A DNA stretch of 64,000 bases from Agrococcus sediminis. GTDB taxonomy: Bacteria > Actinomycetota > Actinomycetes > Actinomycetales > Microbacteriaceae. Every line of letters begins with the position of its first letter. Positions within the stretch are counted from its first letter, which is position 1. The DNA lies in contig NZ_VOIR01000011.1 in NCBI RefSeq assembly GCF_007923295.1, positions 62,001 through 126,000 on the forward strand, written 5' to 3'. The position numbers and the translations under genes were made by a program. Below the pieces are notes generated by a model. It had not been told where the DNA came from. It did no database searches and was given only the letters and a program-made list of their open reading frames with translations. Positions 20,278 to 44,419 of this stretch are shown here, piece by piece.

Positions 20278-20331
20278 GGTGCTCCTCGTCGGCGCCGTCG
20301 CCGGTCGGTCGCAGGTGGATGCGGTGGAGGT

Positions 20332-20391: not shown

Positions 20392-20410
20392 CGCTCATCC
20401 GAGCGCGTGA

Positions 20411-28263: not shown

Positions 28264-28686
28264 TCAGTCGCCGCCGAAGCCGACGACGCCCTTCCGCAGC
28301 AGCGCGTTGCCGTACTTGCGCGCCTCGGCCGTGCGCACGACGCAGAACGCGCTCCGCGCCAGGTCGTAGAACGCGAAGCGCTCGACCTGCGCGAGCCGCC
28401 CCTCCGGGCAACGGGCGGCCGCGCGCAGCTCCGCGCCCACCTCGACGCCCTCGCCCGGCTCCGCCTCCATGAGCAGCACCGACGGCCCCTCGTACTCGTC
28501 GTACGGCACGACCGAGCGGATGGCCTCGAGCACCCGCGGGGCCGATGCCTGCACCGTCACGACCGGCTGGCCGGCGGCGTACGAGGGGTAGTGGGCGTCG
28601 GCGACGAGCACGCGGTCGCCGTGCCCCATGTGGTCGAGCAGGCGCAGCAGCTCGCCGTCGAGCAGCGGATCGATCCCGTTCAGCAT
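28264..28686 (-). CDS. fucU: L-fucose mutarotase (RbsD/FucU family)
   Basis: 140 residues beginning MLNGIDPLLDGELLRLLDHMGHGD, the FucU opening (Leu-x-x-Ile-Pro/Asp-Pro-Leu ... His). DAHYPSYAAG carries the second conserved site, and ERFAFYDLARSAFCVVRTAE ends the active-site wall. It interconverts L-fucose anomers and supplies the form used by the dehydrogenase. Start overlaps the lactonase stop by 7 bp. Last gene of the leftward L-fucose operon. Confidence 0.9.
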   Translation of the reverse strand: MLNGIDPLLDGELLRLLDHMGHGDRVLVADAHYPSYAAGQPVVTVQASAPRVLEAIRSVVPYDEYEGPSVLLMEAEPGEGVEVGAELRAAARCPEGRLAQVERFAFYDLARSAFCVVRTAEARKYGNALLRKGVVGFGGD

Positions 28687-30481: not shown

Positions 30482-30485
30482 GCCC

Positions 30486-31793: not shown

Positions 31794-31822
31794 GGCGGGG
31801 CTCCTCTGACTGGCCATTGCAG

Positions 31823-31851
31823 ACTATAGATCGGATGTTTGGACGGCAAGT
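31823..31851 (-). promoter_or_regulatory. Promoter and operator of the leftward L-fucose operon
   Basis: On the minus strand, CTTGCC (31850-31845) and TATAGT (31828-31823) are spaced by 16 bases. The spacer is filled by the 12-mer AGATCGGATGTT (plus-strand 31828-31839), repeated exactly upstream of the FGGY kinase at 49363. A repressor bound there would block RNA polymerase. Confidence 0.6.
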
Positions 31852-31894
31852 GCTGTCGCCGAGCGGCTCGATCGCCTAGGATCGCTCCGAGACT

Positions 31895-31913
31895 TCGGAT
31901 GTTCGGCATCCGA
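31895..31913 (+). promoter_or_regulatory. Palindromic operator upstream of the rightward L-fucose genes
   Basis: Perfect TCGGATG / CATCCGA arms around TTCGG. It lies 28 bases before the hydrolase ATG and just downstream of a possible TAGGAT box at 31877-31882. The first half matches the TCGGATGTT core of the leftward operator. Confidence 0.6.
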
Positions 31914-31941
31914 CCGCGCGATGACGACGGAAGGAGCGCAC

Positions 31942-32793
31942 ATGCGTCTGGCACGACTGGGAGCAGCCGGCGAGGAGGTGCCCGTCGCCCTCGTCGACGA
32001 GCGGGCCTACGACCTGCGGTCGATCGCCGCCGACATCGACGGCACCTTCCTCGAGCACGGCCTCGATCGCGCCCGCGCCGCGCTCGAGGCCGGCGAGCTG
32101 CCGGAGCTGCCCCGCGACGGCCTGCGCGTCGGCGCCCCGGTCGCGCGCCCCGGTGCCGTCGTGTGCGTCGGCATGAACTACGCGGCCCACGCCGCCGAGT
32201 CGGGCAGCGAGCCGCCGACGCAGCCCGTCATCTTCCTGAAGCACCCCAACACCGTCGGCGGCCCCGACGACGATGTGCCCCTCGCCGCGCACGCGCAGAA
32301 GATGGACTGGGAGGTCGAGCTCGCGCTCGTCATCGGCCGCCCCGCGTGGAACCTCGGCTCGCGGGAGGAGGCGGCCGCGTGCATCGCCGGCGCCACCGTC
32401 GCCGACGACCTCTCCGAGCGCACGTGGCAGCTCGAGGTCTCGGGCGGCCAGTGGTCGAAGGGCAAGTGCGCGCCCGGCTCGACGCCGCTCGGTCCCGAGC
32501 TCGTCACCGCCGACGAGCTCGACCTGGGCGACCTGCGCCTCACGAGCCGCGTCAACGGCGAGCCGCGCCAGGACTCCTCGACCGCCGACCTCATCTTCGA
32601 CGCCGCGACCGTCGTGCAGGACCTCAGCCGCTACATGCGCCTCGACCCGGGCGACGTCGTGCTCACCGGCACACCCGAGGGCGTGGCGCTCTCGGGCCGC
32701 TTCCCCTACCTCGTCGACGGCGACGTCGTCGAGGTGGCGATCGAGGGCATCGGCACGCAGCGCCACCGCATGGTCGCCGAGGCCTCGGCATGA
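31942..32793 (+). CDS. Fumarylacetoacetate hydrolase family protein (2,4-diketo-3-deoxy-L-fuconate hydrolase candidate)
   Basis: 283 residues. The FAH fold is marked by CVGMNYAAHAAESG (about residues 74-87), the metal ligands KMDWEVELALVIG (Glu near 117-119), VADDLSERTWQ (Asp near 150) and the product loop LTGTPEGVALSG (about 243-254). ATG 31942 has GGAAGGAG seven bases upstream; an ATG at 31921 lacks one. In the non-phosphorylative L-fucose pathway this family cleaves 2,4-diketo-3-deoxy-L-fuconate to pyruvate and L-lactate. ATGA overlap with the dehydrogenase gene that makes its substrate supports this role. Confidence 0.9.
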   Translation: MRLARLGAAGEEVPVALVDERAYDLRSIAADIDGTFLEHGLDRARAALEAGELPELPRDGLRVGAPVARPGAVVCVGMNYAAHAAESGSEPPTQPVIFLKHPNTVGGPDDDVPLAAHAQKMDWEVELALVIGRPAWNLGSREEAAACIAGATVADDLSERTWQLEVSGGQWSKGKCAPGSTPLGPELVTADELDLGDLRLTSRVNGEPRQDSSTADLIFDAATVVQDLSRYMRLDPGDVVLTGTPEGVALSGRFPYLVDGDVVEVAIEGIGTQRHRMVAEASA

Positions 32794-33530
32794 GCGAGTT
32801 CGAGGGCCTCGTCGCGATCGTGACCGGCGGCGGCAGCGGCATCGGCGCCGCGATCGCCGACGAGCTCGCCGATCGTGGCGCGCGCGTCGCCGTGCTCGAC
32901 CTGCGCCCCGGCGACGCGCACCTCGGCGTCGAGTGCGACATCGCCGACGACGCCTCCGTGCGCGCGGCGGTCGCGCGGGTCGCCGACGAGCTCGGCGGCA
33001 TCGACGTGCTGATCAACAACGCCGGCATCGGCGCGACCGGCGCGATCGACGACAACGACGAGGCCGAGTGGCACCGCGTGTGGGATGTCAACGTCGTCGG
33101 CATCATGCGCGTCACCCGTGCGGCGCTGCCGCACCTGCGTGCCTCGACGGCGGCGGCGATCGTCAACACCTCGTCGATCGGCGCCACCGCGGGGCTCCCG
33201 CAGCGCGCCCTCTACTCCGCGTCGAAGGGCGCCGTGCTCTCGCTCACCCGCGCGATGGCCGCCGACCACCTGCGCGAGGGCATCCGCGTCAACGCGGTCA
33301 GCCCCGGCACCGCCGACACGCCCTGGGTGGGACGTCTGCTCGCCGCGGCGCCCGACCCGGCGCACGAGCGCGCCCAGCTCGAGGCGCGCCAGCCGCACGG
33401 CCGGCTCGTCGCCCCCGCCGAGATCGCGCACGCCGTCGCGTACCTCGCGAGCCCCCGGGCCGGCTCGACGACCGGCGTCAGCCTCGCCGTCGACGGCGGC
33501 ATGCAGGAGCTGCGCCTGCGCAAGGACTGA
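32790..33530 (+). CDS. Short-chain dehydrogenase (2-keto-3-deoxy-L-fuconate dehydrogenase candidate)
   Basis: 246 residues, classical SDR: cofactor motif VTGGGSGIGAAIA (about residues 11-23), NNAGIGATG (about 74), catalytic Ser in NTSSIGATAG (about 128) and YSASKGAVLS with Tyr/Lys (about 144-148). The acidic VLDLRPGD after strand 2 suggests NAD rather than NADP. It completes the set that turns 2-keto-3-deoxy-L-fuconate into the diketo acid. Only six bases separate its stop from the convergent transaldolase-like gene. Confidence 0.9.
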   Translation: MSEFEGLVAIVTGGGSGIGAAIADELADRGARVAVLDLRPGDAHLGVECDIADDASVRAAVARVADELGGIDVLINNAGIGATGAIDDNDEAEWHRVWDVNVVGIMRVTRAALPHLRASTAAAIVNTSSIGATAGLPQRALYSASKGAVLSLTRAMAADHLREGIRVNAVSPGTADTPWVGRLLAAAPDPAHERAQLEARQPHGRLVAPAEIAHAVAYLASPRAGSTTGVSLAVDGGMQELRLRKD

Positions 33531-33536
33531 GCGGCG

Positions 33537-34190
33537 TCAGGACGCGAGCGACGGCGACGCCTCGAAGACCGCGGCCGCGTCGTCGGTCGCCGGATGCGCG
33601 AGGGCGGCCCAGAGCACGTCGGGGGCGGCCGTGAAGGTGGGCACGCCCGCCTCCGCGAGCGCCACGATGTCGTCGGGGGTGCGCAGGCTCGCCGCGAGCA
33701 CCTCGGTTGCCGAGTCGCCGCACGCGGCCTGCATGCGCGCGATGTCGCCGACCGCGTCGAAGCCGGCATCGCGCATCCGCCCCAGGTACGCCGCGATGTA
33801 GCGGATGCCGCACGAGGCGGCGGCGAGCGCCTGCGCGGGCGTGAAGACGGCCGTCAGCAGCACGGGCGCGCCCTCGCGCGCGAGGCGAGCGGCGACGCCG
33901 AAGCCGACGCGCGTCGCCGGCACCTTCACCACCGCGAGCTCTCCGAGCGCGAGGATCTCGCGGGCGCGCCGCTCGAGGGCCGCCTCGTCGTCGCCCCAGG
34001 CCTGGAAGAAGATCTCGCGCGCGCCCTCGCCGGCCCACCGGGCGTAGAGCTCGGGGATGTCGGCGACGGTGCGGCCGGCGCGCTCGAGGATCGTCGGGTT
34101 GGTCGTCACGCCGTGCACGAGCGAGCCGGAGAGCAGGGGCGACACGGCGTCGACGTCGGCCGAGTCGACGTACAGGCGGGGCGCGGGCAT
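33537..34190 (-). CDS. Transaldolase / fructose-6-phosphate aldolase family protein (TalC-like)
   Basis: 217 residues, the size of the short FSA/TalC class. Features: LYVDSADVDAVSPLL at the start, HGVTTNPTILERAG, the Schiff-base lysine in LAVVKVPAT (about Lys89), TAVFTPAQALAAASCGIRYIAAYLGR and the terminal phosphate region. These enzymes make or break ketose phosphates with dihydroxyacetone or its phosphate. It is divergent from the ribokinase operon, and the 103-base gap holds a copy of that operon's operator core, so it probably belongs to the same pathway. Substrate unknown. Confidence 0.85.
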   Translation of the reverse strand: MPAPRLYVDSADVDAVSPLLSGSLVHGVTTNPTILERAGRTVADIPELYARWAGEGAREIFFQAWGDDEAALERRAREILALGELAVVKVPATRVGFGVAARLAREGAPVLLTAVFTPAQALAAASCGIRYIAAYLGRMRDAGFDAVGDIARMQAACGDSATEVLAASLRTPDDIVALAEAGVPTFTAAPDVLWAALAHPATDDAAAVFEASPSLAS

Positions 34191-34245
34191 GGGTGCTCCT
34201 CACGAGCGCTGGGGATGGTGCCCGGCAGGACGTCACGGGTCGCCG

Positions 34246-34262
34246 CTAATGTAATGACAGGC
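34246..34262. promoter_or_regulatory. Operator half-site of the GntR-controlled regulon, site 1
   Basis: CTAATGTAATGACAGGC contains the 11-mer GTAATGACAGG (34251-34261) that also forms the centre and right arm of the palindrome at 36553. It lies between the divergent talC-like and ribokinase genes, 56 bases from the first start and 32 from the second. Confidence 0.6.
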
Positions 34263-34293
34263 GCGCGCGGACGTCAATGAGGATCGCGCGAGG

Positions 34294-35289
34294 ATGCGAG
34301 GAGCAGTGACCGACGTGCAGGATCTCGACGCAGAGCGGGCAGGCGTGCTGGTGGTCGGCTCGATCACCGCCGATGTGACGACCTTCTCGAGCCGGCTGCC
34401 GCGGCCGGGCGAGACGTTCCTCGGGGACGCGTTCACGCTCGTGCTCGGCGGCAAGGGCGCCAACCAGGCGGTCGCCGCAGGGCGCGCGGGCGCCGACGCG
34501 CAGATGGTCGGATGCGTCGGGGACGACCTGTTCCGCGACCTCGTGCGCGAGGGGCTGCGCGACGCGGGCGTCGACATCCGCCACGTGCGCGTCGTGCCCG
34601 ACCAGACCGGCATCGCGCACATCCGCGTCGACGCGAGCGGCGAGAACGACATCGTCATGGTGCCGCTCGCGAACGCGCACCTCGATGAGGCGCAGATCGA
34701 CCGCGCCTTCGCCGAGCTCGGCCCGAGCACCCGCGTGATGCTCACGCAGCTCGAGATCCCCTTCCAGCTCACGATGCACGCGATCCGCCGCGCGCACGAG
34801 GCCGGCCTCACCGTCGTGCTCGACCCCGCCCCCGCGCACGAGCTGCCCGACGAGATCTGGCCGCTCGTCGACCTCGTCACGCCCAACGAGACCGAGGCGA
34901 CGCTGCTCACCGGCACCGACGTCGACTCCCGCGAGTCCGCCGTCGCCGCCGGGCGCTGGTTCGTCGACCGCGGGGTGGGCGCGGCCCTCATCACGATGGC
35001 GGGCGCCGGCAGCGTGCTCGTCGACGCCGACGGCGTCAGCGACCACGCGCCCATCCGCGTCGAGGTCGTCGACACGACCGCCGCGGGCGACGCCTTCGCG
35101 GGCTTCCTGGCGGCCGCGCTCGCCGCCGGGCTCTCGCGCGACGAGGCCATCCGCCGCGCCGGGGCCGCCGGCGCGCTCGCCGTCACCAAGCGCGGCGCCT
35201 CCCCCAGCCTGCCCACCGCCGCCGAGGTCGACGCGCTGCTCGCGTCGCAGCTCGAGCCGGCGACCGAGTCCGCGAGAGAGGACGCCTGA
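34294..35289 (+). CDS. rbsK: Ribokinase (PfkB family)
   Basis: 331 residues. The ribokinase pattern is complete: N-terminal VVGSITADVTTFSSRLPRPG, GGKGANQAVAAGRAGA (about residues 50-65), LTQLEIPFQLT, VTPNETEATLLTG, and the catalytic/anion-hole motif DTTAAGDAFAG (about 259-269, catalytic Asp265). It phosphorylates the terminal hydroxyl of ribose or a related pentose/hexose. ATG 34294 is used; GTG 34306 is a possible alternative. First gene of a nine-gene operon; the next gene, rbsD, overlaps by one base. Confidence 0.9.
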   Translation: MRGAVTDVQDLDAERAGVLVVGSITADVTTFSSRLPRPGETFLGDAFTLVLGGKGANQAVAAGRAGADAQMVGCVGDDLFRDLVREGLRDAGVDIRHVRVVPDQTGIAHIRVDASGENDIVMVPLANAHLDEAQIDRAFAELGPSTRVMLTQLEIPFQLTMHAIRRAHEAGLTVVLDPAPAHELPDEIWPLVDLVTPNETEATLLTGTDVDSRESAVAAGRWFVDRGVGAALITMAGAGSVLVDADGVSDHAPIRVEVVDTTAAGDAFAGFLAAALAAGLSRDEAIRRAGAAGALAVTKRGASPSLPTAAEVDALLASQLEPATESAREDA

Positions 35290-35693
35290 TGCGCAAGAGC
35301 GCCACGACCATCCACCCCCAGCTGAGCCGCATCATCTCGGAGCTCGGCCACTACGACGAGCTCTTCGTCACCGACGCGGGCCTGCCCATCCCGCAGGACG
35401 CCGAGCGCGTCGACCTCGCCTACCGCAAGGGCGAGCCGCCGTTCCTCGACGTGCTCGACACGATCCTCGCCGAGATCGTCGTCGAGGGCGCCGTGATGCC
35501 CGCCGAGGTCGCCGAGGCGAGCCCGCACGTGCTCGCGGCGGTGCGCGAGCGGCTCGAGCCGTTCGGCATCGACGTGCAGCTCATCCCCCACGTCGACTAC
35601 AAGCGCCGCTCGCACGGCGCGCGCGCCTTCGTGCGCTCGGGCGAGTACACGCCCTACGCCAACGTCGCGCTCATCGCGGGCGTCGACTACTGA
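35289..35693 (+). CDS. rbsD: D-ribose pyranase
   Basis: 134 residues closely following E. coli RbsD: HPQLSRIISELGHYDELFVTD with the catalytic His near residue 20, AGLPIPQDAERVDLAY, and the C-terminal RSGEYTPYANVALIAGVDY, whose Tyr and Asn line the active site. It interconverts pyranose and furanose forms so the kinase gets its substrate. TGATG overlap with the kinase and two bases before the regulator gene. True RbsD features suggest ribose or a close analogue as one input of this operon. Confidence 0.92.
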   Translation: MRKSATTIHPQLSRIISELGHYDELFVTDAGLPIPQDAERVDLAYRKGEPPFLDVLDTILAEIVVEGAVMPAEVAEASPHVLAAVRERLEPFGIDVQLIPHVDYKRRSHGARAFVRSGEYTPYANVALIAGVDY

Positions 35694-35695
35694 CG

Positions 35696-36511
35696 ATGGC
35701 CGTCGACGCCGCCCCGAGACGTCGCCGCAGCACCGCCTCGCTGCCGTCGATCTCGATCGACCGCCGCTCGGCGCTGCCGATGTACGACCAGCTGCGCCGG
35801 CAGATCCTCGAGACGATCTCCGACGAGGGGCTCGAGCCCGGCGACCTGCTGCCGGGCGAGCTGCGCATGTGCGAGCTCTACGGCGTCTCGCGCACGGTCG
35901 TGCGCCAGGCGCTCGGCCAGCTCGAGCACGACGGCATCATCACGCGCGTGAAGGGCAAGGGCACCTTCGTCGCGCCGCAGAAGACCACCGAGACGCTCGC
36001 GAGCGGCCTCGCGGGCCTGTTCGAGGAGGTCGCCGCGCGCGGCGGCCACGTGCACAGCGAGGTGCTGCGGCTCGAGCGCGAGCCCGCCGACGAACGCGTC
36101 GCCGAGCAGCTGCGCTGCGCCCCCGGCACCGTCGTGGTCGCGCTCGAGCGGCTGCGCTTCGTCGACGGCGAGCCCTGGTCGCTCTCGACCACCTGGATGC
36201 CCGAGCACATCGGCGCGCACGTCTTCGGCGCCGAGCTCGCCGAGGGCTCCCTCTACGCGCTGCTCGCCGACCGCGGCATCCGCGCCGCGAGCGGCGTGCG
36301 CTCGGTCGAGGCGTCGGTGACGGATGCGCGCGAGGGCCAGCTGCTCGGCATCGGCCCCGGCAAGCCCGTGCTGCTGCTGCGCAGCGCCATGGTCGACGCG
36401 GCGGATCGGCCGATCGAGTACTTCCAGGCGCTGCACCGCGGCGACCGCACGCGCTTCGAGTTCCACCTCACGGCCGACGACGCGCGCGGACCGGTGTTCC
36501 TGACGCGCTGA
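35696..36511 (+). CDS. GntR family regulator, HutC/UTRA subfamily
   Basis: 271 residues. N-terminal winged helix LPMYDQLRRQILETI, MCELYGVSRTVVRQALGQLE and ITRVKGKGTFVAPQ (about residues 25-100); the remainder is a UTRA ligand-binding domain (EPADERVAEQLRC, FVDGEPWSLSTTWMP, ending FEFHLTADDARGPVF). UTRA regulators sense small sugars or sugar phosphates. It lies inside the operon with rbsK and rbsD upstream and a new promoter downstream. GTAATGACAGG occurs at both promoters of the region, so autoregulation of the whole regulon is likely. Confidence 0.9.
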   Translation: MAVDAAPRRRRSTASLPSISIDRRSALPMYDQLRRQILETISDEGLEPGDLLPGELRMCELYGVSRTVVRQALGQLEHDGIITRVKGKGTFVAPQKTTETLASGLAGLFEEVAARGGHVHSEVLRLEREPADERVAEQLRCAPGTVVVALERLRFVDGEPWSLSTTWMPEHIGAHVFGAELAEGSLYALLADRGIRAASGVRSVEASVTDAREGQLLGIGPGKPVLLLRSAMVDAADRPIEYFQALHRGDRTRFEFHLTADDARGPVFLTR

Positions 36512-36552
36512 GGAACGGCGACGCCGGGCCGACCCGGGGACGCCTGGCGCAA

Positions 36553-36568
36553 ACCTGTAATGACAGGT
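36553..36568 (+). promoter_or_regulatory. Palindromic GntR operator, site 2
   Basis: ACCTGTAATGACAGGT: perfect 6-bp arms around AATG, 41 bases after the regulator stop and 49 bases before the cupin isomerase GTG. Shares GTAATGACAGG with the site at 34246. Confidence 0.7.
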
Positions 36569-36616
36569 AGAGTCGTGGCGCGCCCGACGGAGCGCGCCAT
36601 CGACCGAGGAGACGCC

Positions 36617-37192
36617 GTGCCCGACTTCGCCACGCCCCCCATCAGCCCCTTCGCCATCCGCTTCGACGCCGAGGCGGCGACCCTCTCGCCCGAGGGCCCC
36701 ACGCTCGAGCGGCGCATGAGCGACCTCGAGGGCCTCTTCGCCGACCACGACGCGTGGCAGGCTGCCGTCGCCGACGGCGACCCGGTCGTCTACCGCGTGC
36801 AGTCGTCGCCCGTGCCGGAGGCCGACCGCGAGCTGCCGCAGTCGATCACGACCATCGAGCGCGGCACGACCGCGGGCGAGTGCTGGATGACGAAGGGCCA
36901 CCAGCACCCGAACCACCAGGGCGAGATCTACCTCGCCCTGCACGGCACGGGGGGCCTGCTCATGTTCGACGGCGACCGCGTCGAGTGGCTCGACATGACG
37001 CCCGGCACCATCGGCTACATCCCGCCGGGCTGGGCCCACCGCTCGGTCAACGTCGGCGACGAGCCCTACTCGTTCCTCGCCGTCTACCCGGGCGGCGCCG
37101 GCCACGACTACGGCTGGGTGCTCGAGCACGGCATGGGCAACCGCATCCACCGCACCGGCGACGGCTTCGCGCTGCGCCCCTACAGCGCCTGA
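36617..37192 (+). CDS. Cupin-type glucose-6-phosphate isomerase family protein
   Basis: 191 residues of the archaeal-type phosphoglucose isomerase cupin family. The metal site is in TKGHQHPNHQGEIYLALHGTGG (His, His, Glu; about residues 93-114) and the second cupin motif is PPGWAHRSVNVG (His near 145). GTG 36617 has GGAG seven bases upstream; an ATG at 36560 lies inside the operator and is rejected. The family interconverts aldose- and ketose-6-phosphates. In this operon it probably handles a hexose or pentose phosphate, not central glycolysis. Four bases before the FGGY kinase. Confidence 0.8.
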   Translation: MPDFATPPISPFAIRFDAEAATLSPEGPTLERRMSDLEGLFADHDAWQAAVADGDPVVYRVQSSPVPEADRELPQSITTIERGTTAGECWMTKGHQHPNHQGEIYLALHGTGGLLMFDGDRVEWLDMTPGTIGYIPPGWAHRSVNVGDEPYSFLAVYPGGAGHDYGWVLEHGMGNRIHRTGDGFALRPYSA

Positions 37193-37195
37193 CCC

Positions 37196-38686
37196 ATGCT
37201 GATCGCGCACGACCTCGGCACGACCGGCGACAAGGCCTCCCTGCACGACGACGACGGCCGGCTGCGCGCATCCGTCACGGTCGCCTACCCGGTGCGCTTC
37301 GCGGACGGCGGCATCGCCGAGCAGGACCCGCGCGACTGGGAGCGGGCGGTCGTCGAGGCGACCCGCTCGCTGCTCGAACGCACGGGCACCGACCCCGCGA
37401 CCGTCACCGGCCTCGTCGTCAGCGGCCAGATGATGGGCGCGGTGCTGCTCGACGAGCACTACGAGCCCGTGCGCCCGGCGATCATCTGGGCCGACACGCG
37501 CGCGCAGCCGCAGACCGAGCAGCTCGTCGACCGGCTCGGCGAGCGCGAGGCGTACGCGCTGCTCGGCCACCGGCTGAACCCGACGTACTCGATCGCCAAG
37601 GTCATGTGGGTGCGCGACCACGAGCCCGACGTGTACGACCGCGTGCGGTGGTTCTGCGTCGCGAAGGACTTCGTCGTGCACCGCCTCACCGGGCGCCTCG
37701 CGACCGAGCCGAGCGACGCATCCGCCACCAACGCCTTCGACCAAAAGGCGGGCACCTGGTCGCGCGCCGTCATCGACGCGGCCGGGCTCGACATCTCGAT
37801 CTTCCCCGACATCGTCGCCTCGACCGAGGTCGTCGGCACGCTCACCGACGACGCCGCTGCCGCGACGGGGCTCCCGAAGGGCACCCGCGTCGTGATGGGC
37901 GGCGGCGACGGCCCGATCGCCGCCGTCGGCGCCGGCGTCGTCGCGCCCGAGGACGGCGCGTACGTGTGCCTCGGCACCTCGTCGTGGATCTCGTTCTCGG
38001 CCGAGCAGCCGGTGCTCGACCCGAGCATGCGCACCTTCACCTTCGACCACGTCGTGCCCGGCCAGTACGTGCCGACCGCCACCATGCAGGCGGCGGGCGC
38101 GTCGGTGACCTGGATCAACGAGGTGCTCTCGCCCGAGCCCGACGGGCGCACGCTCTCGGAGCTCGTCGCGCAGGCCGACACCGACGACGCGGCCACCGGC
38201 GGCCTCTACTTCCTCCCCTACCTCCTCGGCGAGCGCGCCCCGCGCTGGAACCCCGACGCGCGCGGCGCCTTCGTCGGCATCGGCAGGCACCACGGCAGGG
38301 CGCACCTCGCGCGCGCCGTCCTCGAGGGCGTCGCCTTCAACCTCGCCGTCTGCATCGACGCGTTCCGCGAGTCGGGCTCGACGATCGACCGCATCGACGC
38401 GGTCGGCGGCGGCGCCGCGAGCGACGCCTGGCTGCAGATCATGGCGGATGTGTGGGGCGTGCCCGTGCGCCGCCGCTCGGTGGTCGAGGAGGCCAACAGC
38501 CTCGGCGCAGCGGTGGTCGGTGCGGTGGGCCTGGGGCTCGTCGACTCCTTCGCGGCGGCCCGCGACCTGTCGGAGGTCACCGCCGAGTTCGTGCCCGACG
38601 CCGGGCGCCACGACCAGTACCGACAGCGGCTCGGGCGCTTCGACGAGGCCTACGCCGCGCTCGAGCCGTGGTTCGGCGCGCACTGA
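37196..38686 (+). CDS. FGGY family carbohydrate kinase (xylulokinase-like)
   Basis: 496 residues. MLIAHDLGTTGDKASLHDD is the phosphate loop, with GDK where most family members have SxK/R; VSGQMMGAVLLDE, WADTRAQPQTEQLVDRLG, VMGGGDGPIAAVGAGVV and VGGGAASDAWLQIMADVWG complete the two FGGY domains. The sugar class is uncertain: the DLGTTGDKA branch lies near xylulokinase and autoinducer-2 kinase relatives. One-base overlap with the following dehydrogenase gene. It phosphorylates a ketose, polyol or sugar acid of the orphan pathway. Confidence 0.85.
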   Translation: MLIAHDLGTTGDKASLHDDDGRLRASVTVAYPVRFADGGIAEQDPRDWERAVVEATRSLLERTGTDPATVTGLVVSGQMMGAVLLDEHYEPVRPAIIWADTRAQPQTEQLVDRLGEREAYALLGHRLNPTYSIAKVMWVRDHEPDVYDRVRWFCVAKDFVVHRLTGRLATEPSDASATNAFDQKAGTWSRAVIDAAGLDISIFPDIVASTEVVGTLTDDAAAATGLPKGTRVVMGGGDGPIAAVGAGVVAPEDGAYVCLGTSSWISFSAEQPVLDPSMRTFTFDHVVPGQYVPTATMQAAGASVTWINEVLSPEPDGRTLSELVAQADTDDAATGGLYFLPYLLGERAPRWNPDARGAFVGIGRHHGRAHLARAVLEGVAFNLAVCIDAFRESGSTIDRIDAVGGGAASDAWLQIMADVWGVPVRRRSVVEEANSLGAAVVGAVGLGLVDSFAAARDLSEVTAEFVPDAGRHDQYRQRLGRFDEAYAALEPWFGAH

Positions 38687-39681
38687 TGGCGACGATCCTC
38701 GCGACGAGCCGCTCCTTCGGCGACGGCAGCCGCGACCTCGTCGGCGAGCTCGAGCGCGCCGGCCACACCGTGCTGCGCGGGCCGAGCGACCACGGGCTCG
38801 ACGCGCTGCGCGAGGCGCTCGCGGTCGCCGACGCCTGGATCGCCGGCACAGGCCCCGTGACGGCCGAGCACCTCGACGCCGCGCCGCGGCTGCGAGTCGT
38901 CGCCCGCTACGGCGTCGGCACGGAGGCGGTCGATGTCGCCGCGGCCACCGCGCGCGGCATCCTCGTCACGAACACCCCGGGCGCGAACTCCGACGCGGTC
39001 GCCGACCACGCGGTCGCCCTCATGCTCGCCGCGCTGCGCTCGATCGCGCACGGCGACCGGCAGGTGCGGCGCGGCGACTGGCGGGCGGTGCGCGGGCGCG
39101 AGCTCGGCGCCCTCACCGTCGGCATCGTCGGGTTCGGCCGCATCGGCCGGGGCGTCGCGCGCCGGCTCGGCGGCTTCGGCTCGCGCATCGTCGCGACCGA
39201 TCCCATGCTCACCGACGAGCAGGTGCGGGACGGCGGCGCCGAGCCGCTCGACCTCGCGGCCATGGCCCGGGAGTGCGGCCTCATCACCCTGCACGCGCCC
39301 GGCGGCCAGACGCTCGTCGACGCCGGCTGGCTCGCCGGGGTCGCGCGGCCGCTCGTGCTCGTGAACACCGCCCGCGCCGACCTCGTCGACGAGGCCGCGC
39401 TCGCCGAGGCGCTCCGCGACGGGCGCGTCGCCGCCTTCGCGGCCGACACGCTCGCCGGCGACACGGCGGGCACCGCCTCCCCGCTGCTCGCCGACGACCT
39501 CGCCGACCGCGTCACCCTCACGCCGCACCTCGGGGCGCAGACCGTCGAGGCGGTCGACGGCATGGGCTCCATCGCCGTCGCCAACGCGCTCGCCGCGCTC
39601 GAGGGCATCGCCCCGCCGAACCCCGTGAACGACCCCGACCCCGCCGCGCTCGCCGCGCGGCGCCGAGAGGAGCAGGCATGA
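38686..39681 (+). CDS. D-isomer-specific 2-hydroxyacid dehydrogenase (phosphoglycerate dehydrogenase-like)
   Basis: 331 residues. NAD-binding GIVGFGRIGRGVARRLG (about residues 142-158), the catalytic arginine region VLVNTARADLVDEAAL (about 222-237), an acidic residue further on (AADTL) and the catalytic His in LTPHLGAQTVEAVDGM (about 281). N-terminal lid: VVARYGVGTEAVDVAAA. It oxidises a 2-hydroxyacid or reduces a 2-keto acid. The substrate is probably a sugar acid or phospho-sugar acid of this operon. Note NTARAD in place of the usual NTARG. ATGA overlap with the aldolase gene. Confidence 0.88.
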   Translation: MATILATSRSFGDGSRDLVGELERAGHTVLRGPSDHGLDALREALAVADAWIAGTGPVTAEHLDAAPRLRVVARYGVGTEAVDVAAATARGILVTNTPGANSDAVADHAVALMLAALRSIAHGDRQVRRGDWRAVRGRELGALTVGIVGFGRIGRGVARRLGGFGSRIVATDPMLTDEQVRDGGAEPLDLAAMARECGLITLHAPGGQTLVDAGWLAGVARPLVLVNTARADLVDEAALAEALRDGRVAAFAADTLAGDTAGTASPLLADDLADRVTLTPHLGAQTVEAVDGMGSIAVANALAALEGIAPPNPVNDPDPAALAARRREEQA

Positions 39682-40334
39682 GCGTCCATGCCCCCACCGA
39701 CCGCCTCGATGCCGTGCGCAGCGCCGGCGTGCTCGCCGTGCTGCGCGCGCCCGACGCCGAGCGCGCGGTGCAGGCCGCCGCCGCCCTCGTCCGCGGCGGC
39801 GTCACCGGCATCGAGGTCACGTACTCGACGCCCGACGCCGCGGCCGTGATCGCCGAGCTGCGGCGCCGCCACGGCGACGCGGCGCTCGTCGGCGCCGGCA
39901 CCGTCACGACCCCGGCGCAGGCCGAGGAGTCGGCCGCTGCCGGGGCGCAGTTCCTCGTCGCCCCCGGCACGCTGCCCGACCTCGCGCGGGCGATGCTCGG
40001 CACGGGGCTGACGACCATGACGGGCGCCATGACGCCCACCGAGGTCATGGGCGCGATGGCGCTCGGCGTCGACGTCGTGAAGGTCTTCCCCGCCTCGCTC
40101 GGCGGCCCAGGGTTCCTCAAGGCGCTCCGCGAGCCGTTCGCCGACGCGGTGCTCATGCCCACGGGCGGCGTCACCGCCGAGAACCTCGCCGAGTTCCTCG
40201 CCGCCGGCGCGATCGCGGTGGGGGCGGGCGGCGACCTCCTGGTCCGCGACGCCCTCGCGGCGCAGAACTGGGACGCGATCGAGGCGCGCGCCCGCGACTA
40301 CGCGTCGGCGCTCGAGGCGGCGAGGCGCGCATGA
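39678..40334 (+). CDS. KDPG/KHG-type aldolase (2-keto-3-deoxy-6-phosphogluconate aldolase family)
   Basis: 218 residues of the class I Eda family. Visible are AVLRAPDAERAVQAA with the substrate Arg, GIEVTYSTPDAA with the catalytic Glu (about residue 43), GAGTVTTPAQA, and the Schiff-base lysine in VDVVKVFPASLGGPGF (about Lys135). Cleaves 2-keto-3-deoxy sugar acids (phosphorylated or not) to pyruvate and an aldehyde. In the operon, the preceding dehydrogenase and kinase could provide such an acid. ATGA overlaps on both sides. Confidence 0.92.
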   Translation: MSVHAPTDRLDAVRSAGVLAVLRAPDAERAVQAAAALVRGGVTGIEVTYSTPDAAAVIAELRRRHGDAALVGAGTVTTPAQAEESAAAGAQFLVAPGTLPDLARAMLGTGLTTMTGAMTPTEVMGAMALGVDVVKVFPASLGGPGFLKALREPFADAVLMPTGGVTAENLAEFLAAGAIAVGAGGDLLVRDALAAQNWDAIEARARDYASALEAARRA

Positions 40335-41242
40335 GCGGCCGCATGGGCTTCGTCGGCGTCTCGACCCGGTCGTCGTCGATCATGGCGATCTTCCCCGTCT
40401 GGGCCGACATCCTCGGGCTCCCCACGCGCGAGCTCGAGGGGCACGACCTGCCGCTCGACGCGACCCGCGAGCAGTACCGCGCGCTCGTCGAGGCCATCCG
40501 CGACGACCCCGCGCACCGGGGGGCGCTCGTGACGACGCACAAGATGGCGCTCTACGCGGCTGCCCACGACCTCTTCGACGAGCTCGACGACTTCGCGCGC
40601 GCGTGCGGCGAGGTCTCGAGCATCGCCAAGCGCGACGGGCGACTGCTCGGGCACGCGAAGGATCCGATCACCGCCGGCCTCGCGCTCGACGAGTTCCTGG
40701 CCCCGGATGCGTTCGGCGGCGTCCGCGACGCCGTCGTGCTCGGGGCGGGCGGTGCGGGCCTGGCCCTCACCTGGCGCCTCGCCGAGCGCGACGACCGGCC
40801 GCGGCGCATCCTCGTCACCGACACGAGCCGCGAGCGGCTCGACCACCTGGCCGCCGTGCACGCCTCGCGCGGCACCGATCCGGCGCTCCTGACCCTGCTC
40901 GAGGCGACGCCCGACGCGACCCGCGCGGCGCTCGCCGAGGCGCCGGAGGGCAGCCTCGTCGTGAACGCCTCCGGGCTCGGGAAGGACCGGCCGGGCTCGC
41001 CCGTGCCCGACGGGGCGGTCTTCCCTCGGCGGGCGGTCGTCTGGGAGTTCAACTACCGCGGCAGCCTCGAGTTCCTGCACCAGGCGCGCGCGCAGCAGGC
41101 CGAGCGCGAGCTGACGGTCGTCGACGGCTGGCGCTACTTCATCCACGGCTGGACCCAGGTGATCGGCGAGGTCTTCGCGATCGAGATGACGCCGGCGCTC
41201 GTCGAGCGCCTCGCGGTCGCCGCCGAGCCGTTCCGCGCATGA
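40331..41242 (+). CDS. Shikimate dehydrogenase-like protein (AroE fold) in a sugar operon
   Basis: 303 residues, close to AroE/YdiB length. The substrate-binding N-terminal domain has the catalytic lysine in GALVTTHKMALY (about Lys77) and the aspartate in GHAKDPITAG (about Asp113); the Rossmann half begins VVLGAGGAGLALTWRL (about 135-150). Both catalytic residues of shikimate dehydrogenase are kept, but the N-terminal sugar/ring-recognition segment differs (VSTRSSSIMAIFPVWAD). No other shikimate-pathway gene is near. It probably oxidises a cyclic or open-chain polyol acid of this pathway; true shikimate or quinate use is not excluded. Confidence 0.8.
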   Translation: MSGRMGFVGVSTRSSSIMAIFPVWADILGLPTRELEGHDLPLDATREQYRALVEAIRDDPAHRGALVTTHKMALYAAAHDLFDELDDFARACGEVSSIAKRDGRLLGHAKDPITAGLALDEFLAPDAFGGVRDAVVLGAGGAGLALTWRLAERDDRPRRILVTDTSRERLDHLAAVHASRGTDPALLTLLEATPDATRAALAEAPEGSLVVNASGLGKDRPGSPVPDGAVFPRRAVVWEFNYRGSLEFLHQARAQQAERELTVVDGWRYFIHGWTQVIGEVFAIEMTPALVERLAVAAEPFRA

Positions 41243-42186
41243 CCGTCGTCCGCACCGTGCTCGGCGACGTCGAGCCGGCGGCCCTCGGCGCGGTCGACGC
41301 GCACGAGCACCTCTTCCAGGTCTCGCCGCTCCTGCCGGGCGACGAGCTCGACGACCCGGAGCGCTCCCGCCAGGAGGCGGCGAGCCTGCGCGGCAGCGGC
41401 GTCGCGGCGATGATCGACGCGACGCCCATCGGGCTCGGGCGCCGGCCGGCCGAGGTCGCGGCCATCAGCGCGGCGACCGGCCTCGGCGTCGTCGCGAGCA
41501 CCGGCATCCACCGCGAGGCCCACTACGGCGCCGAGCACCCGCTGCGCGGCTGGGACGCCGAGCGCCGTGCCGCGGCGTTCGTGCGCGATCTCGTGGAGGG
41601 GATGCCGGAGCACGACGGGCCGGACGCGGGCCCCGCGCTCCACGAGGGCGAGCCCGTGCGCGCCGGCCTCATCAAGACCGGCATCGGCTACTGGTCGATC
41701 GTGCCCTTCGAGCGCGCCACCCTCGTGGCGGCCGCGATCGCGCACGCCGAGACGGGCGCGGCGATCATGGTGCACCTCGAGCACGGCAGCGCGGGCCACG
41801 AGGTGCTCGACCTGCTCGAGCGCCTCGGCGTCGCACCGGCGCGCGTCATGCTCGCGCACGCCGACCGGCTCATCGACCCCGGCCACCACGCCGAGCTGCT
41901 CGCGCGCGGCTGCGCGCTCGGCTACGACGGCATGGCGCGGTGGCGCGACCGCAGCGACCACGAGCTGCTCGAGCTCACCGCCGCGGTCGTCGAGCGCGGC
42001 TTCGACCGCATCCTGCTCGGCGGCGACGTCGCCCGCGCGTCGCGCTACGTCGCCTACGGCGGCATGCCCGGCCTCGCCTACCTCGGCGCGCGCTACCTGC
42101 CGAGGCTGCGCGAGCGCATCGGCGACGAGGTCGTCGAGCGGATGCTCGTGGCCCACCCGCGCGCGCTGCTCGCGATCCGCGGCTGA
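41239..42186 (+). CDS. Phosphotriesterase-family (COG1735) lactonase candidate
   Basis: 315 residues, TIM barrel with a binuclear metal site: DAHEHLFQ (HxH, about residues 16-18), the bridging lysine in AGLIKTGIGYW (about Lys139), MVHLEHGSAGHEV (His near 172), MLAHADRLIDPGHH (His near 200) and LLGGDVARASRY (Asp near 258). COG1735 members include lactonases for phosphorylated aldonolactones as well as promiscuous phosphotriesterases. Last gene of the operon (ATGA overlap), before a strong terminator. A lactone-opening step beside dehydrogenases and a keto-deoxy acid aldolase makes chemical sense. Substrate unknown. Confidence 0.83.
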   Translation: MTVVRTVLGDVEPAALGAVDAHEHLFQVSPLLPGDELDDPERSRQEAASLRGSGVAAMIDATPIGLGRRPAEVAAISAATGLGVVASTGIHREAHYGAEHPLRGWDAERRAAAFVRDLVEGMPEHDGPDAGPALHEGEPVRAGLIKTGIGYWSIVPFERATLVAAAIAHAETGAAIMVHLEHGSAGHEVLDLLERLGVAPARVMLAHADRLIDPGHHAELLARGCALGYDGMARWRDRSDHELLELTAAVVERGFDRILLGGDVARASRYVAYGGMPGLAYLGARYLPRLRERIGDEVVERMLVAHPRALLAIRG

Positions 42187-42277: not shown

Positions 42278-43276
42278 TCACTCGTAGAGGACCGCTGCGA
42301 TCTCCGGGTCCTCGAGGTTCTCGGCGTCGTACCAGTACGAGCCGGTGTCGGTGAAGTCGTCGAGCTCCTCGCCGTTGATGGCGGCGACGGCGTTCTCGAC
42401 CACCGTGCGGCCGATGCCGATCGGGTCCTGCGTGATCGCGCCGGCCATGACGCCGTTGCGGATCGCGTCGACCTGGGCGGCGCCCGAGTCGAAGCCGACG
42501 ATGGTGAGCTCGCCGGCCGGCAGGCCCAGCTCGGTCACGGCGTTCACGATGCCGATCGCCGAGCCCTCGTTCGTGCCGTAGAGGCCGACGAGGTCGGGGT
42601 GCGCGGCGATCATCGCCTTCGCGATGTCGGCCGAGCGGAGGTGGTCGCCATCGCCGTACTGGATGTCGACGATCTCGATGTCGGGGTAGTTCGCCTCGAT
42701 CTCCTCGACGAAGCCGTCGCGGCGCTCGACACCGGTCGAGTTGATCTGGCTGTGGCCGACGATGCCGACCTGGCCCTCGCCGCCGATCAGCTCGGCCATG
42801 TTCTGCGCCGCGAGCGCGCCCGCGGCCATCGAGTCGGTCGCGGCCAGGTTCTGGCCGTACTCGCTCTCGCAGCCGGCGTCGAACTCCACGATGGGGATGC
42901 CGGCGCTCTCGGCCGCCTCGTAGAGCGGGATGCACGCCTGCGGGTCGAGCGCGGCGTAGCCGATCGCGTCGGGGCCGCGGTCGATCGCCGCCTGCAGCAT
43001 CTGCAGCTGCGCGTCGATCTCGGTCTCGGCGGCGGGGCCCTCGAAGGTGACCTCGACGCCGAGCTCCTCGGCGGCCTCCTCGGCGCCGGTGCGCACGGCC
43101 TGCCAGAACTGGTGCTGGAAGCCCTTCGACACCAGTGCGATCTGCAGCGTCTCGCCGTCGCCGCCCGCCTCGGGCTCGCCCGACGTCGCCGGGGCGCCTC
43201 CGCCCGAGCAGCCGGCGAGCGCGAGCGCGAACGTGGCCGCGCCGGCGACGAGCGCCGTCCTCTTGCTGAACCTCAT
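42278..43276 (-). CDS. Sugar ABC transporter substrate-binding lipoprotein
   Basis: 332 residues. Lipobox ALAGC with Cys23 after a hydrophobic signal, then a Gly/Glu-rich linker and a type I periplasmic-binding-protein domain: LQIALVSKGFQHQFWQAVRTG (about residues 44-64), AIDRGPDAIGYAALDPQACI, GHSQINSTGVERRDGF and GTNEGSAIGIVNAV. HQFWQAVRTGAEEAAEE is typical of ribose/allose-type binding proteins. Last gene of the leftward importer operon, 123 bases after the permease. Ligand not determinable; the nearby isomerase/kinase pair or the orphan operon are the likely users. Confidence 0.9.
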   Translation of the reverse strand: MRFSKRTALVAGAATFALALAGCSGGGAPATSGEPEAGGDGETLQIALVSKGFQHQFWQAVRTGAEEAAEELGVEVTFEGPAAETEIDAQLQMLQAAIDRGPDAIGYAALDPQACIPLYEAAESAGIPIVEFDAGCESEYGQNLAATDSMAAGALAAQNMAELIGGEGQVGIVGHSQINSTGVERRDGFVEEIEANYPDIEIVDIQYGDGDHLRSADIAKAMIAAHPDLVGLYGTNEGSAIGIVNAVTELGLPAGELTIVGFDSGAAQVDAIRNGVMAGAITQDPIGIGRTVVENAVAAINGEELDDFTDTGSYWYDAENLEDPEIAAVLYE

Positions 43277-43399: not shown

Positions 43400-44419
43400 T
43401 CAGAGCCCTCTGCGGTTGCGGAGGGAGTCGGCGAAGACGGCGATCGCGATGACCACGCCGACGACGACGTTCTGCCATTCGGTCTGGATGGACATGATGC
43501 GCAGGCCGTTGATCAGCACGCTCATGATGAGCGCGCCGATGAGCGTGCCGACGATCGAGCCGCGGCCGCCGAGCAGCGACGTGCCGCCGATGATCACGGC
43601 CGCGATGGCCTGCAGCTCGTAGCCGACGCCGAGCTGCGGCTGGGCCGAGTCGAGGCGGGCGGCGAGCACGACGCCGGCGATGCCGGTGAACACGCCCGCG
43701 ACGGTGTAGATCGTGACGAGCCAGCGGTTCGTGTTGACGCCCGAGAGCCGCGTCGCCTCCTCGTTCGAGCCGATCGCCACGGTGTAGCGGCCGAAGACGG
43801 TCTTGCTGAGCAGGAAGTAGGCGACCGCCGCGAGGATGAACATGATGAGCACCGCGTTCGGCAGGCTCGGGATGAGCGTGCCGAGGGCGATGTCCTTGAA
43901 GCCGGGCACGCCCGAGAAGTAGATCGGGCGCACGCCCGAGATCACGAGCGCGAGGCCCTGCGCGACCATCATCATCGCGAGGGTCGCGATGAAGGGCGGC
44001 AGCTTCAGGTAGGCGACGTTGATGCCGTTGATGAGGCCCATGAGCGCACCGGTCGCGATGCCGGCGAGCACGCCGAAGATGAGCGGCAGGCCGAGGTTCA
44101 CGGCCACGATGCCGGTCATCACCGCCGCGAGGGTCATGCCCGTGCCGATCGAGAGGTCGATGCCGCCGGTCGTGATGACGAACGTCGTGCCGAGCGCGAG
44201 GATGCCGATCACCGCGGTCGCGAGCAGGATGCCCGAGATGTTCGACCAGGTGAAGAAGTTGTTGCTCGCGATCGAGAAGAACAGCAGCAGCACGACGAGC
44301 GTGCCGAAGGCCAGGCCCTGCTGGAGGCCCTTGCGCCACAGCGCGGCCCGGGCGCCGCGCTCCTTGGCGACGGCCTCGTCGGAGGGCGCGTCGGCGGGGC
44401 TCTGGGTCGTCTGGCTCAT
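43400..44419 (-). CDS. Sugar ABC transporter permease (RbsC-like)
   Basis: 339 residues with about ten hydrophobic segments. The ribose-family motif FVITTGGIDLSIGTGMTLAA lies near residues 85-104 and AAVIIGGTSLLGGRGSIVGT near 278-297. Forms the channel as a homodimer, as only one permease gene is present, unlike the rhamnose importer. 4-bp overlap with the ATPase gene. Confidence 0.92.
   Translation of the reverse strand: MSQTTQSPADAPSDEAVAKERGARAALWRKGLQQGLAFGTLVVLLLFFSIASNNFFTWSNISGILLATAVIGILALGTTFVITTGGIDLSIGTGMTLAAVMTGIVAVNLGLPLIFGVLAGIATGALMGLINGINVAYLKLPPFIATLAMMMVAQGLALVISGVRPIYFSGVPGFKDIALGTLIPSLPNAVLIMFILAAVAYFLLSKTVFGRYTVAIGSNEEATRLSGVNTNRWLVTIYTVAGVFTGIAGVVLAARLDSAQPQLGVGYELQAIAAVIIGGTSLLGGRGSIVGTLIGALIMSVLINGLRIMSIQTEWQNVVVGVVIAIAVFADSLRNRRGL

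Follow-up and report, generated by a model that had tools for sequence, protein, structure and literature searches.

Genes and transcription units

The window, the 64,000-nucleotide stretch of Agrococcus sediminis DNA analysed here, carries at positions 33537–42186 ten genes that are all open, in the order and orientation first described. An earlier note had read them as a nine-gene operon with a divergent talC, and the gene set, order, and orientation of this description stand, but not the single operon: because operator copies lie at 34248–34261 and directly before the cupin gene at 36554–36567, two adjacent units are likelier, rbsK-rbsD-gntR and cupin-FGGY-HADH-eda-aroE-like-PTE, each behind one copy of a palindrome. 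The first copy (AATGTAATGACAGG) is in the talC/rbsK intergenic region, and similar sites lie between TAL and RBK in relatives; the second (CCTGTAATGACAGG) is a perfect palindrome. The divergent gene (33537–34190, minus strand) encodes an FSA/TalC-like class I aldolase (PF00923, 110 bits) that stays under the fructose-6-phosphate aldolase cut-off (TIGR00875, 106 vs 246 bits) and keeps K89, Q63, and Y135, presumably the FSA-type residue pattern, in 11 aligned rows. On the plus strand, the first unit encodes a ribokinase-like PfkB kinase (34294–35289, start possibly GTG 34306) that narrowly misses the ribokinase equivalog (TIGR02152, 292.9 bits vs a cut-off of 299.65), an RbsD-type pyranase above cut-off (35289–35693; NF008761, 132 vs 93 bits), and a GntR/UTRA regulator (35696–36511; PF00392 and PF07702), the proposed repressor.

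The second unit, also on the plus strand, begins with a cupin sugar-phosphate isomerase of the archaeal-GPI type (36617–37192; PF06560). Its frame is open from 36560, and the start is probably GTG 36617, which is preceded by GAGGAG; the alternatives are ATG 36560, inside the operator, and GTG 36575, the gene caller's choice. By phmmer it matches structures of cupin-type glucose-6-phosphate isomerases (best E 5.6e-42), and at least 97% of 78 rows retain H114, H116, E122, and H160, which we take to be metal ligands. There follow an XylB-like FGGY ketose kinase (37196–38686; PF00370/PF02782), which is above the xylulokinase cut-off (TIGR01312, 405 vs 380 bits) while its Pararhizobium counterpart misses it (336 bits), and a PGDH-like D-2-hydroxyacid dehydrogenase (HADH, 38686–39681; PF02826) with R230 and H281 in 85/85 rows and D (45), E (39), or Q (1) at position 259. 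The last three genes encode a KDPG/KHG-type aldolase (Eda, 39678–40334; PF01081; TIGR01182, 194 bits, cut-off 156), the sole PF01081 gene found in the genome, an AroE-like dehydrogenase of the shikimate-dehydrogenase fold (40331–41242), which is the hallmark of the module, and a PTE-family hydrolase (41239–42186; PF02126, 113 bits, cut-off 22), a proposed phospho-lactonase. From FGGY to PTE, neighbouring genes overlap by 1–4 bases.

The AroE-like protein is under all NCBIfam AroE cut-offs (best 45.8/252 bits) and has no Pfam family above cut-off. Its AlphaFold2 model (pLDDT 95.6) was matched by Foldseek, at about 20% identity, to quinate/shikimate dehydrogenase (2.8e-16, TM 0.73) and 5-ketofructose reductase (2.9e-15), the latter a sugar-active enzyme of the AroE family. 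K71 and D111, presumably the Lys/Asp pair of the family, are found in 40/40 rows, the NYRG motif is invariant, and GLGKD is nearly so. The invariant R243, K218, and H70 would suit a phosphorylated substrate.

Conservation of the module and its operator

For comparison, 77 well-flanked relatives were used. Cupin, FGGY, HADH, and lactonase genes lie together beside the AroE-like gene in 67/77 loci (36/46 without Microbacterium), and individually in 74, 74, 72, and 70, respectively. The full core occurs in Actinomycetota, in Proteobacteria, and in one unassigned MAG; the four Deinococcota/Chloroflexota loci have a partial core only. Seven loci contain no recognised lactonase (L034, L074, L092, L096, L104, L111, and L112), and three of these (L092, L096, and L104) also have no recognised HADH. 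The core is within 8 kb of rbsK in 12/77 loci and of rbsD in 7/77. An FSA-like gene is that close in 8/77, only in actinobacterial loci; in three Microbacterium genomes examined, it is farther off, behind the same kind of operator. The proposed block from FGGY to PTE has held up as a conserved unit, with Eda tied to it by the operator, and the last six genes form a conserved, apparently co-regulated catabolic module. The isomerase and the FSA/transaldolase, which had been assigned to a second branch, have to be placed anew: the cupin belongs to the core, and the FSA-like aldolase is accessory.

The hydrolase is of the PTE type in 63 loci and of the MBL type in 8, with one locus having both; PTE prevails in most loci and MBL in proteobacteria, and the MBL rows sit in an AroE clade that also contains PTE rows. 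Among the PTE-family proteins, no fewer than 97% of 78 rows have H22, H24, K146, H179, H207, and D263, which we assume to be equivalents of the binuclear PTE metal ligands. The nearest curated model is the pentono-lactone-phosphate hydrolase NF045706, and the window protein is far under its phospho-furanose lactonase cut-off (101.6 vs 630 bits). For the MBL protein, the first NCBIfam match is an unspecific metal-dependent hydrolase (69/144 bits) and the second is UlaG (42/306 bits). The suggestion that a phosphorylated sugar is oxidised through a lactone to an acid gains from this picture, in which either of two non-homologous hydrolase families stands beside the same enzymes; the lactone route is favoured because both families have phospho-lactonase relatives.

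The palindrome common to both units is TGTNATNACA. The 2.74 Mb genome contains a single exact copy of CYTGTNATNACARG, at 36554; at up to three mismatches, matches in the window are at chance level (8 found vs 8.6 expected). In relatives, TGTNATNACA lies upstream of six module gene types, chosen after an earlier motif survey, in 113/299 regions vs 11/1291 other regions, and seven control palindromes are found in 0–2 of the same 299. The eda gene of Microbacterium is no longer beside the module, and 17/20 such displaced eda genes have the exact motif 50–94 bp upstream. This result was predicted beforehand and comes from one genus, so that these are not independent events. This operator makes Eda a member of the pathway. 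The shared GntR-type operator of the earlier note is supported at the level of motif conservation, as the same motif precedes both units and displaced eda genes and is enriched at the module genes of relatives; the GntR protein would bind the palindrome and act as a repressor. Two exact sites in the Chloroflexi genome G301, the second of which precedes an ADH-like gene adjoining an FGGY/ABC cluster (L143), were left out of the tally since control matches outnumber motif matches there (20 vs 14 at up to one mismatch). The last genome-wide scan used an asymmetric pattern that misses CCTGT...ACAGG sites; two of its extra sites, in L166 and L167, and one site in L170 precede genes without a clear link.

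Downstream, on the minus strand, are an ABC sugar-binding protein (42278–43276), a permease (43400–44419), and an ATPase (44416–45933); genes of the binding-protein type are near in 52/77 loci and permeases in 58/77. No operator was found at up to two mismatches before these ABC genes of the window, and 28/66 related ABC ATPase genes have one. Beyond them lie a distant FucI-like protein (46191–47828), a possible feeder isomerase, and a second FGGY kinase (47839–49326), a possible feeder kinase, both on the minus strand. Nine loci, including two of a single genome, contain a member of the FucI-like family. The window protein shares 61% identity with one from the Anaerolineae locus L092, whose gene is 3 kb away from that of the AroE-like protein. 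At roughly 30% identity, the model of the window binding protein best matches 5dkv, 4rxt, and 4wut, and the best match of a Pararhizobium binding protein is 4ry9 (E 1.1e-116); the ligands are presumably tagatose, D-arabinose, D-fucose, and D-talitol. Naming the window substrate from these matches was given up, as they are too distant.

Proposed pathway and alternatives

We propose, at a probability of about 0.4, an Entner–Doudoroff-like route under GntR control in which a ketose is imported, phosphorylated, oxidised to a lactone, and cleaved by an aldolase; substrate, step order, and products are our inference. The GntR repressor would govern how a rare hexulose, or a sugar derived from a hexitol, is imported by the ribose-type ABC transporter and degraded. 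The FGGY kinase would phosphorylate the ketose at its last carbon to a ketose-6-phosphate, and the cupin isomerase would convert this to an aldose-6-phosphate. Oxidation of its ring form by the AroE-like enzyme would give an aldono-lactone-6-phosphate, which the PTE-family enzyme (MBL-fold in proteobacteria) would open to the aldonate-6-phosphate. HADH would then oxidise C2, and Eda would split the resulting 2-keto-aldonate-6-phosphate into glyceraldehyde-3-phosphate (G3P) and a C3 2-oxo acid. RbsK, RbsD, and the FSA-like aldolase may form a co-regulated accessory branch.

KDPG aldolases usually release pyruvate. The pyruvate formation suggested in the earlier note would need a dehydratase, and our search for the IlvD/Edd and enolase families does not bear it out: an EDD-like gene is near the module in 1/77 loci and an enolase-family dehydratase gene in 13/77, and none of either kind lies inside the core operons of the 77 loci. 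Of 23 module genomes, 14, our own included, have one PF00920 gene, in our genome presumably ilvD, and the other nine have 2–5. Hydroxypyruvate or a 3-deoxy substrate must therefore be weighed: an ordinary ketohexose would yield hydroxypyruvate as the C3 product, and a 3-deoxy sugar would yield pyruvate. Hydroxypyruvate is the simplest choice given that the module has no recognised dehydratase, and its release by Eda is our conjecture. No hydroxypyruvate-using gene was seen linked to the module. Glycerate kinase was discarded as an indicator of hydroxypyruvate because it does not discriminate: PF02595 is present in 22/23 module genomes and PF13660 in the last one, against an order-wide base rate of 273/297; the AroE-positive genome G032, outside the 23, is without PF02595, and no operator was seen at the glycerate-kinase region of our own genome (L136).

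The same lack of a dehydratase would be accounted for by a 3-deoxy substrate, for example 3-deoxyfructose, the reduced form of 3-deoxyglucosone, with HADH converting 3-deoxygluconate-6-phosphate directly to KDPG and Eda yielding pyruvate and G3P. We consider such a salvage of glycation products improbable, although every core enzyme would catalyse a normal reaction. Genes for DkgA-like aldo-keto reductases, a type that reduces dicarbonyl sugars, have the exact operator about 15 bp upstream of the ATG in three Microbacterium genomes, and a related enzyme (50% identity) is in the Marinovum cluster; these three operator sites came from scanning, however, not from prediction. The DeoC family, which acts on deoxy-sugar phosphates, adjoins the AroE-like gene in seven loci (the one member tested is above cut-off). 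On the other hand, the operator is found at D-psicose 3-epimerase-like genes in 7/37 cases, at sites common to divergent ABC genes, which indicates a ketose with a 3-hydroxyl group (two such proteins reached 154 and 167 of 300 bits), and we know of no 3-deoxy sugar for these transporters. That a widespread bacterial salvage route of kinase, isomerase, two dehydrogenases, and lactonase takes glycation-derived 3-deoxyglucosone/3-deoxyfructose to KDPG is slightly more improbable still; if true, it would join the Entner–Doudoroff pathway at KDPG with no dehydratase step. Pyruvate, the usual Eda product, would also result from an ordinary phosphorylative Entner–Doudoroff-type route with an unlinked or unrecognised dehydratase for the aldonate phosphate, in which HADH might, for example, reduce an aldehyde or keto acid product. 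The multiple PF00920 genes in 9/23 genomes and an enolase-family dehydratase gene in the window (30486–31793) fit this route, but the latter belongs with a fucose-type set, no operator precedes it or any of 18 enolase-family genes (0/18), our genome has a single PF00920 gene, and HADH equals the kinase in conservation, so that we judge this route rather unlikely.

Unlikely too, but the most credible of the alternatives, is that the hydroxyl group attacked by the AroE-like enzyme is an internal one (C3 or C5), with the lactone arising otherwise and the steps following another order, or that a pentulose is handled as its 5-phosphate. The closest sugar-active fold relative, 5-ketofructose reductase, acts at C5, and the Lys/Asp pair K71 and D111 is conserved; no other core enzyme, however, was seen that could form a lactone from an aldose phosphate, and the phosphate-compatible invariant residues would speak for a phosphorylated substrate. 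A pentulose would fit the FGGY kinase, which exceeds the xylulokinase cut-off, and the nearest model of the PTE protein, a pentono-lactone-phosphate hydrolase (phospho-furanose lactonase), whereas the GPI-like cupin favours a hexose phosphate. Very improbable, finally, is a D-ribose operon that lies by chance beside unrelated genes: RbsD is above and RbsK just under cut-off, and the transporter is of the ribose type, but one motif precedes both units and the displaced eda, and few cores are near rbsK or rbsD.

Relation to known systems

The proposed hexose-6-phosphate route resembles the Entner–Doudoroff pathway (Zwf, Pgl, Edd, Eda) in its lactone, its acid, and its Eda cleavage to G3P, but an AroE-like enzyme would replace Zwf, a PTE or MBL hydrolase Pgl, and a 2-hydroxyacid dehydrogenase Edd, with entry through an FGGY kinase and a cupin isomerase. 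The AroE-like enzyme shares the fold and the Lys/Asp pair with 5-ketofructose reductase and shikimate and quinate dehydrogenases, and differs from them in its low identity and its own motifs. Its PTE partner has the fold of the Mycoplasma phospho-furanose lactonase, reportedly the enzyme underlying NF045706 and said to be from the work of Korczynska et al. in Biochemistry in 2014, and likewise a proposed phosphorylated sugar lactone as substrate, but scores far below that model. In proteobacterial clusters, a distant MBL-fold relative of UlaG (L-ascorbate-6-phosphate lactonase) takes the lactonase place, with a higher score for the metal-dependent hydrolase model and with other neighbour genes. 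D-ribose utilisation (rbsDACBK) has in common the RbsK-like kinase, RbsD, and the ribose-type ABC transporter, but not the six further conserved enzymes or the GntR-type operator common to them. No matching described pathway was found in the open-access literature that was searched, and in this range the initial claim that no such pathway has been described holds.

The names under which the pathway enzymes appear (shikimate dehydrogenase, glucose-6-phosphate isomerase, phosphoglycerate dehydrogenase, and phosphotriesterase) are misleading, and the operator offers a handle for finding further members in actinobacterial genomes. The module would represent a conserved carbohydrate pathway, for which the absent dehydratase makes a clear chemical prediction.

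Organization of the gene block and its conservation

The positions of the ten genes described in the earlier note were borne out in the window. By family search, their products are an FSA/TalC-like aldolase (TAL), a ribokinase-like kinase, an RbsD pyranase and a GntR/UTRA regulator, and, as the core, a cupin GPI-type isomerase, an FGGY kinase, a PGDH-like 2-hydroxyacid dehydrogenase (HADH), a KDPG-type aldolase (Eda), a distant AroE-like protein and a PTE-family hydrolase. Neighboring genes from FGGY through HADH, eda and aroE-like to PTE overlap by 1–4 bases. A palindrome, the putative GntR operator, is present as a perfect copy before the cupin gene (CCTGTAATGACAGG, 36554-36567) and as a near copy between talC and rbsK (34248-34261), and the sole exact occurrence of CYTGTNATNACARG in the 2.74 Mb genome is the copy at 36554-36567. 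From these two palindromes, we read the block as two transcription units, rbsK-rbsD-gntR and cupin to PTE, plus the divergent talC, with one putative regulator over all. Of the previously proposed nine-gene operon with a divergent transaldolase under a shared operator, the shared control is retained as a proposal, and a single unit is less likely than two in view of the palindrome before the cupin gene. An open frame for the cupin extends back to 36560, within the operator, and GTG at 36617, with GAGGAG ahead of it, is the likelier start. ARAGORN called a tRNA-Ser(CGA) at 38625-38715, overlapping the FGGY end and the HADH start; lying within coding sequence, this tRNA is probably spurious.

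Of the whole set, the AroE-like protein stands out most. Among 297 genomes from the order, 14 have its gene (own genome counted), as do 15 plasmid records, seven of which were taken for analysis. Across 84,980 species genomes, a scan yielded at least 590 candidate stretches, at least 579 of them confirmed, of which the best 80 were used for neighbor analysis. Among the matches listed, the closest named genus by this protein was Agrococcus (83% identity). Neighbors were mapped by tblastn and a codon-based gene caller. After two recognized duplicates and one short contig had been dropped, 97 loci remained, and the 77 with at least 6 kb on either side served for neighbor counts, a sample drawn from the top scorers of the family, with many loci from Microbacterium. 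Within 8 kb of the AroE-like gene, these loci contained cupin (74/77), FGGY (74/77), HADH (72/77), PTE (63/77), an ABC ATPase (61/77), Eda (39/77), a psicose-epimerase-like gene (33/77), an enolase-family dehydratase (13/77), RbsK (12/77), an MBL-fold protein (8/77), TAL (8/77), RbsD (7/77) and an EDD-type dehydratase (1/77), the low TAL and RbsK counts being partly due to the 8 kb limit. Three Microbacterium genomes have a group of TAL, RbsK, RbsD and GntR away from the core, and the operator, with one mismatch, lies between TAL and RbsK.

When the conservation of the block, as suggested in the earlier note, was checked across genomes, it held: cupin, FGGY, HADH and a lactonase occurred together in 67 of the 77 loci. 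Of the 46 loci not assigned to Microbacterium, 36 had all four partners, and 29 Eda as well. The ten incomplete loci (L022, L034, L074, L079, L082, L092, L096, L104, L111 and L112) include all four from Deinococcota and Chloroflexota, each with just two or three partners, and the full core was therefore seen in Actinomycetota, six of seven proteobacterial loci and one unassigned MAG (L106). Two further proteins were seen near the AroE-like gene. One, of ~97 aa and ABM-domain-like by eye, is encoded ~1 kb away in 17 loci (for example, L028:11361-11654), of which two belong to a single genome. The other, of 442-451 aa and isomerase-like by eye, lies inside the core operons of L101, L030, L032 and L034 and is also present in L031, whose member, the one tested, had no Pfam or NCBIfam match.

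A candidate route through phosphorylated sugars

By sequence, the cupin resembles cupin-type glucose-6-phosphate isomerases (E 5.6e-42), and at what we take to be the metal-ligand positions of cupin and PTE, the predicted ligands are conserved in the alignment. In HADH, the residues that presumably form the D-2-hydroxyacid dehydrogenase triad comprise Arg and His in 85/85 rows and an acid position with Asp (45), Glu (39) or Gln (1). The model of the AroE-like protein (pLDDT 95.6) structurally matched quinate/shikimate dehydrogenases and 5-ketofructose reductase. According to one paper, one 5-ketofructose reductase is related to shikimate dehydrogenases, and a putative shikimate dehydrogenase of Clostridium pasteurianum was inactive on 5-ketofructose (PMC7954740). 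By analogy with that reductase, proteins of this fold may have sugars as substrates.

We tentatively propose, with a probability of roughly 0.4, an Entner-Doudoroff-like phospho-sugar oxidation, for which we infer the following order of steps. FGGY would convert a ketose to its 6-phosphate, the cupin would isomerize this to the aldose-6-phosphate, the AroE-like enzyme would form the lactone-6-phosphate, PTE or the MBL-fold protein would open it to the aldonate-6-phosphate, HADH would yield the 2-keto-aldonate-6-phosphate, and Eda would carry out the aldol cleavage. Opening of a phosphorylated lactone is best argued from the finding that two unrelated folds, both distantly related to phospho-lactonases, occupy the same place. 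In the seven proteobacterial loci, the dehydrogenases have an MBL-fold protein as their neighbor, and PTE is missing there. The best NCBIfam match of the MBL-fold protein was a generic metal-dependent hydrolase (69 of 144 bits), followed by UlaG, the L-ascorbate-6-phosphate lactonase (42 of 306 bits). The window PTE reached 102 of 630 bits with the phospho-furanose lactonase family, a weak relationship. In the AroE tree, in which the placement of two long-branch rows (L020 and L021) is unsure, the MBL loci fall within a clade that also contains PTE loci, and the MBL group represents one change (support 61/98). Both lactonase types are found within one locus of Microbacterium sp. Bi121 (L050), where one of two AroE-like genes adjoins PTE and the other the MBL-fold gene.

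It is less likely that the AroE-like enzyme acts instead at an internal hydroxyl, with another order of steps, or that the substrate is a pentulose processed as the 5-phosphate. The pentulose version draws on the window FGGY, which scored above the xylulokinase cut-off, and on a characterized phospho-furanose lactonase that, by the title of its study, reportedly acts on pentono-lactone 5-phosphates.

Pyruvate formation requires removal of water, and no IlvD/Edd or enolase-family gene was recognized inside the core operons. The own genome has a single PF00920 gene, which we take to be IlvD; one such gene is present in 14 of 23 module genomes (own counted), and two to five in the other nine. No PF01081 gene other than the window eda was found in the own genome. 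Therefore, either Eda releases hydroxypyruvate, or the sugar lacks a 3-hydroxyl, or an unrecognized dehydratase acts in the pathway. We consider hydroxypyruvate release the most likely of the three, consistent with a psicose-3-epimerase-like gene that shares the operator with ABC genes in several loci; glycerate kinase, considered as a sign of hydroxypyruvate, gave no help. The alternative of a sugar without a 3-hydroxyl would offer textbook reactions for all core enzymes, and points for it are the operator copies before DkgA-like aldo-keto reductase (AKR) genes, as a lead, and the DeoC-family gene that directly adjoins the AroE-like one in seven loci (L083, L094, L098, L099, L103, L104 and L107). 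The L104 member, the one tested, matched TIGR00126 with 142 bits (cut-off 117). DeoC is unexplained where the pathway already includes Eda.

The earlier remark that no described pathway has this gene set agrees with our searches of the open-access literature, in which we found no matching pathway. A word search of the FGGY family paper (PMC3245297) gave no match for 'shikimate' or 'Actinobacteria'.

Neighboring sugar genes in the window

Two possible feeder enzymes of the pathway, a distantly FucI-like protein (46191-47828) and another FGGY kinase (47839-49326), are encoded directly upstream of the window ABC genes. The FucI-like protein has only weak Pfam Fucose_iso matches and is 61% identical to a protein of an Anaerolineae MAG (L092:13843-15495), whose gene lies ~3 kb from the AroE-like gene. 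This identity between an actinobacterium and an Anaerolineae member, both with the gene near the module, suggests that the FucI-like protein travels with it. A set at 28264-33530 resembles an oxidative L-fucose/L-rhamnose-type pathway and comprises a FucU-like mutarotase, an amidohydrolase, an AKR, an enolase-family dehydratase, an FAH-family hydrolase and an SDR. The curated models named for this set scored below cut-off, with the amidohydrolase reaching 167 bits against the L-fuconolactonase cut-off of 400, and the operator studied here was not found upstream of its enolase-family gene. L-rhamnose genes at 22848-26068 encode a RhaI-type isomerase and a RhaD-ADH fusion, both above NCBIfam cut-offs, and by inspection of the gene list, transporter genes nearby (~16566-21457) make up a further ABC system.

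The putative operator and its regulon

All loci were scanned for TGTNATNACA close to gene starts, and it was found before cupin (48/77), the ABC ATPase (28/66), FGGY (18/90), TAL (6/13), RbsK (6/16), including the talC/rbsK interval, and the psicose-epimerase-like gene (7/37), and before 5/620 unlabeled genes. Pooled, the six gene types had it in 113/299 upstream regions versus 11/1291 of others, a descriptive count, as the types were picked after an initial motif scan; seven control palindromes occurred in 0-2 of the same 299 regions.

An exact site also precedes DkgA-like AKR genes of three Microbacterium genomes (L171:2724-3560, L168:3367-4203 and L169:2273-3121), ~15 bp ahead of the ATG and with a -10-like box between. 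Two of them were tested and scored 355 of 425 bits; the AKR as a regulon member is a lead only.

The eda gene is missing from the cluster in 25/31 Microbacterium loci. The relocated eda of one genome (G097) has the exact motif 45 bp upstream, and other displaced eda genes were therefore tested for it, covering the genomes of 21 out of 22 further Microbacterium loci, 20 of which had an eda orthologue. Among the 20, the exact motif stands 50-94 bp ahead of the eda start in 17 and a one-mismatch form 56-57 bp ahead in two more, and no convincing motif is present upstream in L160, the 20 genomes being of one genus and their sites partly inherited. The eda gene of G260 has a degenerate copy, CTTGTAGCTACAGG. 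Judged from these upstream sites, Eda is part of the regulon even when its gene is displaced from the cluster.
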